The translations under genes were made by a program, and so were the position numbers. The notes beneath the pieces were generated by a model. It saw only the letters and a list, made by a program, of their open reading frames with translations, was not told where the DNA came from and made no database searches. From assembly GCF_000455345.1 (NCBI RefSeq), contig NZ_HG315690.1:1-64000 (forward strand): a stretch of 64,000 nt of DNA, given 5' to 3'. This stretch comes from Halopiger goleimassiliensis (GTDB lineage Archaea; Halobacteriota; Halobacteria; Halobacteriales; Natrialbaceae). Positions 18,615 to 23,266 of this stretch are shown in pieces. Each line of letters opens with the position of its first letter. The stretch's first letter is position 1.

Positions 18615-18959
18615 TTACTCTTCGATCGAACGTCTGACGGCATCGTCGGCTCCGGAGGAGTCCCGTACCTCCACGCGACCGTCGCCACGAACGGTTACCT
18701 CGTATCCCTCGTACTCGAGGCGGATGACGGTTCCCGCCGCGCGCTCACCGGAGGGTCGAAAGAGACGGTCGAGCGCCTCCGGATTGACGACGGAGTACAG
18801 CGGCTGGTATGCCGGTGGCTCGATGTCAGTTACCTCGACGCCCTCCCGGTCGGCGATCGCTCGAATGATCGCTTGCGATGGCGGACCACCGCCACCGGTC
18901 GTCGAGGGATCGTCCGGAGGATGCATATCCGGCGCTACATCGTTCGCCCGGATAAGCAT
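18615..18959 (-). CDS. HalOD1 output-domain protein
   Basis: The 114-residue protein is almost entirely a HalOD1 domain, a small output module seen in haloarchaeal signalling proteins. Recognisable parts are Ala-Ile-Ala-Asp-Arg-Glu-Gly-Val, Pro-Leu-Tyr-Ser-Val-Val-Asn-Pro-Glu-Ala-Leu-Asp-Arg-Leu-Phe, and a C-terminal hairpin Gly-Tyr-Glu-Val-Thr-Val. It carries no sensor domain of its own. Start is ambiguous (18959 chosen; 18926 and 18989 are alternatives). Its partner is unknown. Confidence 0.75.
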   Translation of the reverse strand: MLIRANDVAPDMHPPDDPSTTGGGGPPSQAIIRAIADREGVEVTDIEPPAYQPLYSVVNPEALDRLFRPSGERAAGTVIRLEYEGYEVTVRGDGRVEVRDSSGADDAVRRSIEE

Positions 18960-19012
18960 AGTGGCAATTTCACAGCCAAAGAGAATCACGTCGCTCTAGC
19001 AGTCGGGGATGG

Positions 19013-19924
19013 TTACTCGCTTCCGGGCCGGTTTCGACTGGTGAGTACGCCGTCGATGCCACGTAGGACCGACCGCAGCAACTGTGCGATCGTATACCGG
19101 CGGGCGAGGTAGACGCTGACCATCGCCAGGACGGTTCCGCCGACTACGTCGGCGAACCAGTGGATGCCCAGATACATCGTCGACACGACGATGCTAATCG
19201 CGAGCACGCCCGAGAGACCCGCCCAGAGAGGGTACTTTTCGCGAGTGTGCCAGGCGAGGAAGAACACCGTCATCGAGAGCGACGTGTGCAACGACGGAAA
19301 GACGTTGGTGTTCTGGTTAACTTGGTTTGTCAGCCAATGCGCTCGCGGGAACGCGTCGTACAACAGGCCTTCGAACAACAGCGGATCGAAGTTGCGCGGA
19401 CCGTAGGCGATGAAGACGATATAAAGGAGCAATCCGATTGCGTAATTGGCCGTAAACGCGACCAGCAGTGTCGAGAGGTCGTCGACCTCCTCGAGCGCGA
19501 AGTACGCGACGAACGGGAACAACAACAGGAAGGCGTAGCCGTAGATGTAGACGAAGACGAAGTACGCGGTCAACTCCGGCGTCTCGAGCGACTGGAGGAA
19601 CTCCACGGGAGCGACCGGCAGCAGGCCCACGTCGATGACGAACAGCTGGTAGGTGATGTTCTGGCCCAGGATCCGCCACTCGATCTGGGTCAACAGGTCC
19701 CCTGTCGCCCACCGGACGAACAGGACGGCAGCCAGCGCTGCAAGCGGAAGCAGACAGCTCCTGAGCCGCCAGCGGGCGTCCCGACACGCCGCGACGAGTC
19801 GGCGCGGGCCGACGATGACGAGCGTCGCGGCGACGAGCATCGTCGTGACGACGGCGGCGAGTTCGAAGACGACGGCCACGAGCGTCCCTCCCAGCATGAA
19901 GTCCCGTGACCGTACGACCGGCAC
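19013..19924 (-). CDS. PAP2-superfamily membrane phosphatase/transferase
   Basis: The 303-residue integral membrane protein has about seven helices. PAP2 motifs are seen late in the chain: Phe-Pro-Ser-Leu-His-Thr-Ser (near 219) and Gly-Ile-His-Trp-Phe-Ala-Asp-Val-Val-Gly-Gly (near 262). These provide the His and Asp residues used for phosphoester transfer. It most resembles the inositol-phosphorylceramide-synthase-like branch, so a role in lipid headgroup or polyprenyl-phosphate metabolism is plausible but not provable. Confidence 0.85.
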   Translation of the reverse strand: MPVVRSRDFMLGGTLVAVVFELAAVVTTMLVAATLVIVGPRRLVAACRDARWRLRSCLLPLAALAAVLFVRWATGDLLTQIEWRILGQNITYQLFVIDVGLLPVAPVEFLQSLETPELTAYFVFVYIYGYAFLLLFPFVAYFALEEVDDLSTLLVAFTANYAIGLLLYIVFIAYGPRNFDPLLFEGLLYDAFPRAHWLTNQVNQNTNVFPSLHTSLSMTVFFLAWHTREKYPLWAGLSGVLAISIVVSTMYLGIHWFADVVGGTVLAMVSVYLARRYTIAQLLRSVLRGIDGVLTSRNRPGSE

Positions 19925-19978: not shown

Positions 19979-21724
19979 TTACTCGAGCAGTTCACCGTCG
20001 TCGTACCGGTAGCCGGCGTCCTTGAACAGGGTTCGGACCTGTTCCGGATCGATCTCCCCATCGGAGCCGGGGAACTCGGCGATGGACGACTCCCAGTCGA
20101 GCCCCCCCGACTCCGGCGCGATCCCGACGAGTCCGCTCAGCGTCTCCGGCACGCGACCGAATCCACCTAGCAGTTCGGAGACGACGTGCTCGCGGTCGAT
20201 CAACCGCGAGAGGATCTGCCGGAACTGTGGGTTGCCGAGAGTGGGATCGTGGATGTTGTAGCCGATCATGTAGAACGAACGGGTTCGGCTGGTCACGAGG
20301 TCGACGCCCTCGGCCTCGCGAATCGCGTCGACTTCCTCCGGTGGCACGTCGGTTCCCGTCACGTCGATCGCCTCGTCGGCCAGTGACTCGATCATCGCCC
20401 CCGCGTTCGGTTCGATTCGAAAGGTGAGCCCTGCGTACTGGGAAAACTCCTCGAGGACGGCCGGTCGATCCGCGTCCGGGTCCCGAAGGGGATGGTCGTC
20501 GAACGGCTCGAGTTCCAACGCATCCGGCGCTACGTCGTCGACGTAGAACAATCCGGAGCCGACGGGTTCCTCGATTTCCTCGATGAGGGCGGCGGTACGC
20601 CGGTTCGCCACGAGTTCGGAGCGTGGTTCCCAGACGTGCTGGGGCAGAATCGGTGTCGTCAGGACGCGCCTGGCTGCCGGACGAGCGATCCCGGGAAACG
20701 AAAACTCGACGGTCCGGTCGTCGATCGGTTCGACCGATTCGACGAGCGTCTGTCGGGCGCGATACCGCGGTGCCGGAACACCGTCTTCGACCGTTCCGAG
20801 CGAGGTATCTCGCAGGAACGCCGACGTGAACGCCACGTCCGCGGCGTCCAGGTCGACGCCGTCGTGCCACGAGACTCCCTCGCGGAGCGTGACGGTTGCC
20901 GTGAGGGCGTCGCTCTCGTCCCAGGCCACCGATTCGGCGAGCCACGGCACGTACTCGTCGGTATCAGGGTTCAACCGAACCAGCGGATCGTAGAGGAGCC
21001 CCGTCACGCCCTCGATCCGGTTGTTGGCGACGGCGAGCGGGTTCAACTGGTCGGTCGAACGCTCACCGTAGATGCCGACTACGAGCGGATCGTCTCGAGG
21101 CCCGTCTTCCGGTTCGGTCGACAGCAGTTCGACGTACTCGATCGGCCGTTGCGGGACGAACGATGGCCCGATCGTGGATCGCTTGCCACCGACCAGTCGA
21201 GGATAGGCGACCACGGTGTAGGGAGCGGTCTCCTCGAGATGCTCGAACAGGTCTACGAGCACGCTCTCGCGATCGACCGTGCTCGATCGCTGGCGCTCGA
21301 GCAACTCGTCGGTCTGGACGTCCGAGAAGTGAAAGGGGTTTTGCCAGCCCGATTCAGTCACGAACGTCGAGTGAAGCAGGCCGCGCAGCGCGTCGAACTC
21401 GTCGATTCCCTGGTGGCGAACGACGAACACGTCGTAATCGCCCTGGAGGAGAACGTCGCGGTAGAGTTCCGATTTCGCGACGGGTTCGTGCATGGTATCG
21501 ATGCCAGCCGCCTGCATGTTCCCCCGCAACTGGCTCAGGATTTTGGCGGCGACGGCGTCGTCGTCGGTCGGGACCGTCTTGATGTTCAGAGTGACCTGCT
21601 CGGGTGCGGTGTCCTCCGCTCGAGACCAGAACCGTTCCGAACAGCCGGCGAGGGCACTCGCCGCCACACAGCCGCTTCCTGCAAGCAGTTCTCGTCGCGA
21701 GATGGACCGTCCGCCCTCGACCAT
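19979..21724 (-). CDS. Circularly permuted family 5 (peptide-type) ABC substrate-binding lipoprotein
   Basis: The 581-residue protein has a twin-arginine signal (Ser-Arg-Arg-Glu-Leu-Leu) and lipobox Cys28, so it is exported and lipid-anchored. The domain order is unusual. Residues about 44-205 match the end of a DppA/OppA-type protein (Gln-Ala-Ala-Gly-Ile-Asp, Gly-Asp-Tyr-Asp-Val-Phe, then Glu-Glu-Thr-Ala-Pro-Tyr). Residues about 212-581 match the beginning and middle (Asp-Gln-Leu-Asn-Pro-Leu, then Leu-Arg-Glu-Gly-Val-Ser-Trp-His-Asp-Gly at 280-289) and stop at Phe-Lys-Asp-Ala-Gly-Tyr, where normal proteins continue into the last lobe. No permease or ATPase gene is adjacent. A TATA-like tgtaaagg lies about 28 nt before the ATG. 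Confidence 0.85.
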   Translation of the reverse strand: MVEGGRSISRRELLAGSGCVAASALAGCSERFWSRAEDTAPEQVTLNIKTVPTDDDAVAAKILSQLRGNMQAAGIDTMHEPVAKSELYRDVLLQGDYDVFVVRHQGIDEFDALRGLLHSTFVTESGWQNPFHFSDVQTDELLERQRSSTVDRESVLVDLFEHLEETAPYTVVAYPRLVGGKRSTIGPSFVPQRPIEYVELLSTEPEDGPRDDPLVVGIYGERSTDQLNPLAVANNRIEGVTGLLYDPLVRLNPDTDEYVPWLAESVAWDESDALTATVTLREGVSWHDGVDLDAADVAFTSAFLRDTSLGTVEDGVPAPRYRARQTLVESVEPIDDRTVEFSFPGIARPAARRVLTTPILPQHVWEPRSELVANRRTAALIEEIEEPVGSGLFYVDDVAPDALELEPFDDHPLRDPDADRPAVLEEFSQYAGLTFRIEPNAGAMIESLADEAIDVTGTDVPPEEVDAIREAEGVDLVTSRTRSFYMIGYNIHDPTLGNPQFRQILSRLIDREHVVSELLGGFGRVPETLSGLVGIAPESGGLDWESSIAEFPGSDGEIDPEQVRTLFKDAGYRYDDGELLE

Positions 21725-22105
21725 GTATCCTTTCGTAGGCTACCACACTGTAAAGGACTTACTCTCGATCCGAAACGTACGTGATCGGGGGACAGCGCCC
21801 TCCCGAGGAGGGATTGATTTCCTCTCGCTGAGGGATCAAACTGACGATTGGGCCTCGACCGAACCCGCGTCCGAACTCGGTCGTGACGCGTTCGTCGCCC
21901 GGTGACTGTTAGTAGTAGCTGACTACCATCGCTTCGAGACTGTTCTATGATCCTGAAAGACATTTTTTCGATCGTAACGTAGCCATAACAATGGCTCCGA
22001 TCGGAAAGGGCGTGACGTGGGAACCGTTCCCAGCGTCGAAGCGCAGAACTCGGTGTGACGCCACTCGCGGACTCGAGCGGTCGGGAACGGCCCCGAGAGA
22101 CAACC
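21725..22105. other. Divergent intergenic region, binding protein and cetZ
   Basis: About 380 bp without a gene. It holds the leaderless promoter of the minus-strand lipoprotein (TATA-like tgtaaagg at 21749-21756). A 6-bp hairpin ccctcc/ggaggg with a 3-nt loop lies at 21798-21812. AT-rich segments at 21957-21990 could serve cetZ with a long leader; no TATA is seen 28 nt before the cetZ ATG. Confidence 0.4.
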
Positions 22106-23266
22106 ATGAAACTCGCACTCATCGGCTTCGGTCAAGCTGGCGGGAAGATCGTCGACGAGTTCCTGGCGTTCGACGAGCGAATCGGCGGTGGATTCATCGA
22201 ATCGACAGTCGCCGTCAACTCGGCGACGACGGACCTACAGGGACTCGAGAACGTTCCCCAGTCGAATCGCGTCCTCATCGGTCAGGCCCGCGTGAAGGGC
22301 CACGGCGTCGGTGCGGACAACGAACTCGGTGCGTCCGTCACGGAGGCCGACATCGACGAGATCCAGGGCGCGATCGATCGTATCCGCGTCCACGAGATCG
22401 ACGCGTTTCTCATCGTCGCCGGGATGGGCGGTGGCACCGGGTCGGGCGGTGCGCCGGTCCTCGCGTCCCACCTCCAGCGGATCTACAACCAGCCCGTCTA
22501 CGGGCTCGGGGTCCTGCCGGCGACGGACGAGGGCGGCATCTACACGCTCAACGCGGCACGCTCGTTCCAGACGTTCGTCCGGGAGGTCGACAACCTGCTC
22601 GTGTTCGACAACGACGCCTGGCGCAGCGCGGGCGAATCCGTCGCCGACGGCTACGGTCGAATCAACCAGGAGATCGTCGAGCGGTTCGGCCTCCTGTTTG
22701 CCGCCGGCGAGGTCGGTCGTGCCGATCACGTCGCCGAGAGCGTCGTCGACTCCTCGGAGATCATCAACACGCTCGAGGACGGCATCTCGACGATCGGGTA
22801 CGCCCGAGAAGCTGTCGATACGTCGCGCGATGGCCTCCTCTCGTCGTTGCGCAGCGACGACTCGTTCGACGAAGGCGAGGCGACCAACCGCATGACCAGC
22901 CTGGTTCGGAAGGCGGCACTCGGTCGGCTCACGCTGCCCTGTGACGTCTCGAGTGCGAATCGAGGGCTGGTCGTCGCGACGGGACCGCCCGACGAGTTGA
23001 ACCGGAAAGGCGTCGAACGCGGCCGTCAGTGGCTCGAGGACGAGACGGGAAGTATGGAGATCCGCGGCGGCGATTTCCCGCTGCCGGACCGGGGCGAGGT
23101 CGGTGCGATCGTGCTCCTCTCCGGCGTGACGGACGTCCCCCGCGTCGAACAACTCCAGCAGGTCGCGATCGAGGCGAAGGATCGTACCGAGTCCCTCGAG
23201 GCCGCCGCCGACGAGGAGTTCGCGTCGCTCGTCGACACCGGCGGTGAACTCGACGCGCTGTTCTGA
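22106..23266 (+). CDS. cetZ: CetZ tubulin/FtsZ-superfamily protein
   Basis: CetZ proteins are cytoskeletal GTPases that shape haloarchaeal cells. The 386-residue protein starts Met-Lys-Leu-Ala-Leu-Ile-Gly-Phe-Gly-Gln-Ala-Gly-Gly-Lys, the CetZ hallmark. It has the tubulin signature Gly-Gly-Gly-Thr-Gly-Ser-Gly near 108-114. Length and ends match the family. Which CetZ group it belongs to cannot be settled by eye. ATG 22106 was chosen because upstream codons have no family match. The neighbouring small zinc-ribbon gene downstream may be unrelated. Confidence 0.93.
   Translation: MKLALIGFGQAGGKIVDEFLAFDERIGGGFIESTVAVNSATTDLQGLENVPQSNRVLIGQARVKGHGVGADNELGASVTEADIDEIQGAIDRIRVHEIDAFLIVAGMGGGTGSGGAPVLASHLQRIYNQPVYGLGVLPATDEGGIYTLNAARSFQTFVREVDNLLVFDNDAWRSAGESVADGYGRINQEIVERFGLLFAAGEVGRADHVAESVVDSSEIINTLEDGISTIGYAREAVDTSRDGLLSSLRSDDSFDEGEATNRMTSLVRKAALGRLTLPCDVSSANRGLVVATGPPDELNRKGVERGRQWLEDETGSMEIRGGDFPLPDRGEVGAIVLLSGVTDVPRVEQLQQVAIEAKDRTESLEAAADEEFASLVDTGGELDALF

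Follow-up and report, generated by a model that had tools for sequence, protein, structure and literature searches.

Reports of large two-lobed binding proteins that are circularly permuted in nature are rare. A natural permutant is known from cluster B, the binding protein Tp0684 (TpMglB-2, or MglB-2) of Treponema pallidum (PMC4990184). For family 5, whose canonical chain runs from N-lobe through the middle part to C-lobe, we found no circular permutant described in open-access papers (subscription papers lay outside the search), and a word search of the main text of the CIRPIN paper on permutation detection gave no family 5 case. Here we describe a DppA/OppA/AppA relative of family 5 (PF00496) whose chain has almost certainly undergone circular permutation in nature. 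Its gene lies in a stretch of 64,000 nucleotides, the whole of which we call the window. An earlier note on this DNA, made from the sequence alone, recognized the permutation and knew of no described case; within the papers searched this is true of family 5, and it fails for binding proteins in general, since Tp0684, from another cluster, is known (PMC4990184).

Order of the lobes in the window protein

The gene, defined by its open reading frame, profile matches and a structural model, occupies positions 19979 to 21724 of the minus strand and encodes a circularly permuted family 5 solute-binding lipoprotein (SBP5) of 581 amino acids. The chain order is lipid anchor, C-lobe part, short linker, and then N-lobe with middle part. 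By sequence, residues 1 to 28 (21641 to 21724, minus) form a Tat-type signal with a lipobox (SRRELL...LAGC), in which the twin arginine at 10-11 and the AGC at 26-28 are invariant in alignment A1. The segment of the C-terminal lobe that has moved to the front spans residues 44 to 205 (21110 to 21595, minus), as placed by the canonical HMM, hhalign and AppA (1xoc). A new linker between the old C- and N-termini, at residues ~206 to 213 (21086 to 21109, minus), is the gap between the two homologous stretches, and it also falls between secondary-structure elements of the model (H194-202 and E214-219). The N-terminal lobe and middle part follow as residues 214 to 581 (19982 to 21085, minus; PF00496 and canonical HMM), and this segment stops where canonical members enter their last lobe. 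It carries the family hallmark LREGVSWHDG at residues 280 to 289 (20858 to 20887, minus), of which L280, H287 and D288 are conserved among both PAP2-linked and ABC-linked permuted proteins. The C-terminus lies just past FKDAGYRYDDGELLE, and the break itself corresponds to the loop immediately before the C-lobe strand. In these respects (the Tat signal and lipobox ahead of the permuted domain, the displaced hallmark, and a chain end at the passage into the last lobe) the earlier note had described the protein correctly.

The swapped order is seen most directly with a canonical SBP5 profile that we built from 16 proteins of normal order. Its positions 392-516 match residues 50-177 of the window protein (iE 1.6e-5) and its positions 43-380 match residues 205-579 (8e-53), bearing out the earlier assignment of residues ~44-205 to the C-terminal lobe and of residues ~212-581 to the N-terminal and middle parts. 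When the protein is rotated, the same profile gives one collinear match of 217 bits, vs 178-184 bits with a shuffled N-terminal piece, and the other permuted proteins examined likewise give two stretches in swapped order. Profile-profile comparison (hhalign) aligned residues 42-205 with the canonical C-lobe (positions 399-535) at 97.7% and E 2.2e-12, against 0.1-0.5% for three column shuffles and one reversed control. MAFFT, unguided, placed canonical C-lobe fragments on N-terminal residues ~45-175. When the family profile was searched against PDB sequences, Bacillus subtilis AppA (1xoc) was aligned twice in swapped order, with AppA residues 359-500 on profile positions 43-187 (i-E 0.0036 for this C-lobe stretch); the permuted order itself was absent from the PDB chains among the matches listed in this sequence search (60 of 92 matched). 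Thus, the protein has both lobes of family 5 in one chain without keeping the canonical order.

With Pfam alone, the permutation is not visible in the window protein. PF00496 gives a single stretch, model positions 1-284 of 368 at residues 257-578 (1.4e-38; 133.4 bits vs a curated cut-off of 32.4), which ends at the chain end. Such a single collinear match would also be produced by an SBP5 that had lost its C-terminal end and gained an unrelated domain, residues 44-205, in front. However, this explanation is contradicted by the profile-profile result with its clean controls, by the swapped matches of the canonical HMM, AppA and a paralogue, by the AlphaFold2 (AF2) model, and by the same order in ~50 proteins. 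We regard it as very improbable, and rejected it on the profile-profile evidence for residues 42-205. The paralogue, L002, is encoded elsewhere in the same genome, and its Pfam matches run from model 269-354 to model 1-287. The two swapped PF00496 hits that the earlier note had proposed as a check are therefore found in L002, and only one of them in the window protein.

Structure prediction agrees with a family 5 fold, with a caveat. AF2 run with canonical fragments in the alignment gave a single confident fold (pLDDT 83.6, pTM 0.83), whereas with an alignment restricted to permuted homologues it gave only a poor model (pLDDT 50.8), which was discarded. Because an alignment that includes canonical fragments presupposes homology, the better model is support and not independent proof. 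Its top 50 Foldseek matches are all family 5 type binding proteins (E down to 1.8e-16); the sequential TM score is only ~0.5 over ~400 columns, which is expected when a sequential aligner meets a permuted chain. Altogether, the checks from the earlier note that were applied (swapped profile hits, orthologues of the same order and one confident fold) all agree with circular permutation, and the interpretation of the protein as a circular permutant is supported.

Distribution and history of the permuted order

The same breakpoint was found in ~50 proteins examined, from independent records, which rules out an artefact of a single genome or assembly and answers a further check proposed in the earlier note, that orthologues should share the order. 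These proteins come from Acidimicrobiia, from Alphaproteobacteria (Ketogulonicigenium, Nitratireductor, Maritalea, Roseomonas and Neorhizobium) and from other haloarchaea. Within the Halobacteriales, the N-terminal 212 residues are matched in 181 of 295 genomes, or 164 of the 257 of high quality; matches were counted up to E 0.001, and among the weakest there may be a few canonical C-lobes. No full-length permuted match was found outside Halobacteriales in the sampled genomes of the same phylum, nor any relative on the viral contigs scanned. The permuted lineage spans domains of life, occurs in ABC operons and is present in the majority of sampled Halobacteriales genomes, and its members are annotated merely as “ABC transporter substrate-binding protein.”

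In the bacterial and some of the haloarchaeal proteins with this breakpoint, Dpp-type permease and ATPase genes come after the binding protein gene. This statement covers only those ABC-linked members whose neighborhood was read, and excludes an unannotated Neorhizobium record. In an Acidimicrobiia metagenome-assembled genome (L021:2837-8733), the permuted SBP5 gene heads a complete dppBCDF-type operon.

In a tree of the rotated full alignment, all 51 permuted proteins of this type stand apart from canonical SBP5s (UFBoot 98); L086, L089 and L105, missed by the automatic order threshold, were classed as permuted manually, from their printed coordinates. The clade is also obtained from the N-lobe and middle part alone (UFBoot 95), and was not recovered in a tree of the C-lobe only. 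Within it, the PAP2-linked proteins form a group with UFBoot 100, and the window protein falls in this haloarchaeal subclade. The permuted lineage is old and common to bacteria and archaea, and with present sampling the simplest reading is that the chain was permuted once and a haloarchaeal side branch arose later.

Family 5 has also been permuted elsewhere. A second permuted SBP5 of the same genome (L073:9962-11899; G000:C1 ~1133961-1135898) has a different break, inside the C-lobe, and is followed by genes of dppB, dppC, dppD and dppF type. Its order occurs in 9 haloarchaeal genomes out of 41 genomes examined, and canonical-order relatives persist in other genomes with 52-56% identity over the main stretch. 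This permutation is independent of that in the lineage of the window protein, and younger. Since canonical and permuted relatives are both extant at such identity, the evolutionary step is directly testable. A third order, with HMM positions 157-531 before 49-162, is found in a protein of a Subdoligranulum variabile plasmid (L108:3565-5355). The earlier note had none of this context: neither the old permutation shared with bacterial Dpp-operon proteins, nor the second independent permutation in the genome, nor the tie to PAP2.

The PAP2 partner and a possible function

Directly downstream of the permuted gene, at 19013 to 19924 on the minus strand, lies its conserved partner, a PAP2_3 membrane protein gene (PF14378, 4e-17 and 63.1 bits against a cut-off of 27; PF01569, 2e-10). 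The encoded protein carries the conserved motif residues of the superfamily (PSLH, GIHW..D), and R177, S211, H213, H255 and D259 are nearly invariant across 33 such partners. Binding protein and PAP2 genes adjoin at 37 of 39 loci in many haloarchaeal families: 13/13 long Natrialbaceae loci, the window, L002 (a protein distant from the window protein), 18/20 loci mostly from other families, and 4 plasmid copies, where stop and start overlap. At the remaining two, L081 (2171-3928) and L091 (2743-4755), both of the PAP2-linked clade, no PAP2 gene adjoins. Closely related strains contribute some of the 39 loci, which therefore do not amount to 39 independent observations. The permuted proteins of the PAP2-linked clade have residues of their own, among them W127, Q128, P130 and D306, which are nearly fixed there and rare among ABC-linked relatives.

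Other genes accompany the pair. A tubulin-like CetZ gene at 22055-23266 of the window diverges from it and keeps this position in most Natrialbaceae loci. A small gene with a HalOD1 domain (18615-18989) follows the PAP2 gene. On a Natronorubrum bangense plasmid (L099:1151-6576), two permuted-SBP/PAP2 pairs, counted among the 4 plasmid copies, stand in tandem with overlapping gene ends.

As the earlier note had stated, no permease or ATPase of the family 5 class is adjacent to the gene; the ABC genes at ~14.4-17.0 kb belong to another class (MalK-type ATPase) and lie on the opposite strand. Five OppC-type (OppC_N) permeases, and no more, are encoded in the genome, along with ten matches to the oligo_HPY ATPase, all near five other SBP5 genes. 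With each permease beside another SBP5, the two PAP2-linked proteins remain without one. A cognate Dpp/Opp permease and ATPase are usual for family 5, although membership does not strictly depend on them.

What, then, might the protein do? We infer a lipoprotein tethered to the external surface of the membrane, a two-lobed clamp that would fold and close on its ligand as do other proteins of family 5, whose ligands are peptides, nickel or sugars, although we have no ligand or binding data. This branch may no longer feed a permease, its partner having changed from an ABC permease to PAP2. The captured ligand, perhaps phosphorylated or lipid-linked, could be presented to the PAP2 enzyme, or the binding protein could regulate PAP2; no interaction or expression data bear on this. 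The conserved motif residues fit an enzyme, with phosphatase or phosphotransferase activity inferred from sequence. Linkage of the two genes in an operon is no proof that their products are connected physically or functionally. Taken as a whole, a family 5 permutant in partnership with PAP2 that feeds no permease is the explanation we hold to be somewhat better than an even bet.

It is also conceivable that the permuted protein is an orphan that shares one of the five Dpp-type permeases, with the PAP2 neighbor incidental. Five Dpp systems are available in the genome, and relatives within the permuted clade that are ABC-linked do sit with Dpp permeases. However, a separate SBP5 lies beside each of these five permeases, and both paralogues retain the PAP2 pairing, which is also kept in many families and in the duplicated tandem pair of N. 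bangense, so we judge the orphan reading unlikely. A little less likely still is that the protein senses its ligand and signals through a transducer or the PAP2 protein without supplying an enzyme substrate. BasB and CosB, two haloarchaeal binding proteins that act together with transducers, provide a general precedent, and a HalOD1-domain gene is near the pair in most Natrialbaceae loci. On the other side, the annotated loci showed no transducer gene, the same search for HalOD1 found none near the pair in the 20 loci from other groups, and the PAP2 motif residues are conserved, as would fit an enzyme. Returning to the PAP2 partnership, we can put forward only tentatively, as somewhat less than an even chance, the broadest form of the account. 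In that form, family 5 has been permuted at least three times in nature at different breakpoints, and one ancient permuted lineage, common among bacteria and archaea, came to serve in haloarchaea in a surface module that has no transporter, with the binding protein handing its ligand to a PAP2 membrane enzyme.

Comparison with known systems

The downstream partner resembles PAP2_3 (PF14378) phosphatases and phosphotransferases in having the motif residues of their superfamily. We know of no PAP2 system with a family 5 binding protein as operon partner, and a literature search for such a pair found nothing. The recurrent pairing without a transporter points to a use of binding proteins for which we found no description, and offers a handle on function.

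Tp0684 is similar to the window protein in being a natural, membrane-anchored permutant with relatives in other bacteria, and differs in having the Type I, cluster B sugar-binding fold and in being described as part of an ABC glucose importer (PMC4990184). The window protein does not have that fold, its sequence and structure matches being to family 5. With DppA, OppA, AppA and NikA (PF00496), it shares homology in both lobes, the hallmark motif and a lipoprotein export signal, and some of its permuted relatives serve Dpp-type ABC operons. In contrast to those proteins, its chain begins with the C-lobe part and ends with the N-lobe and middle part, and at its locus a PAP2 gene takes the place of the permease and ATPase genes.
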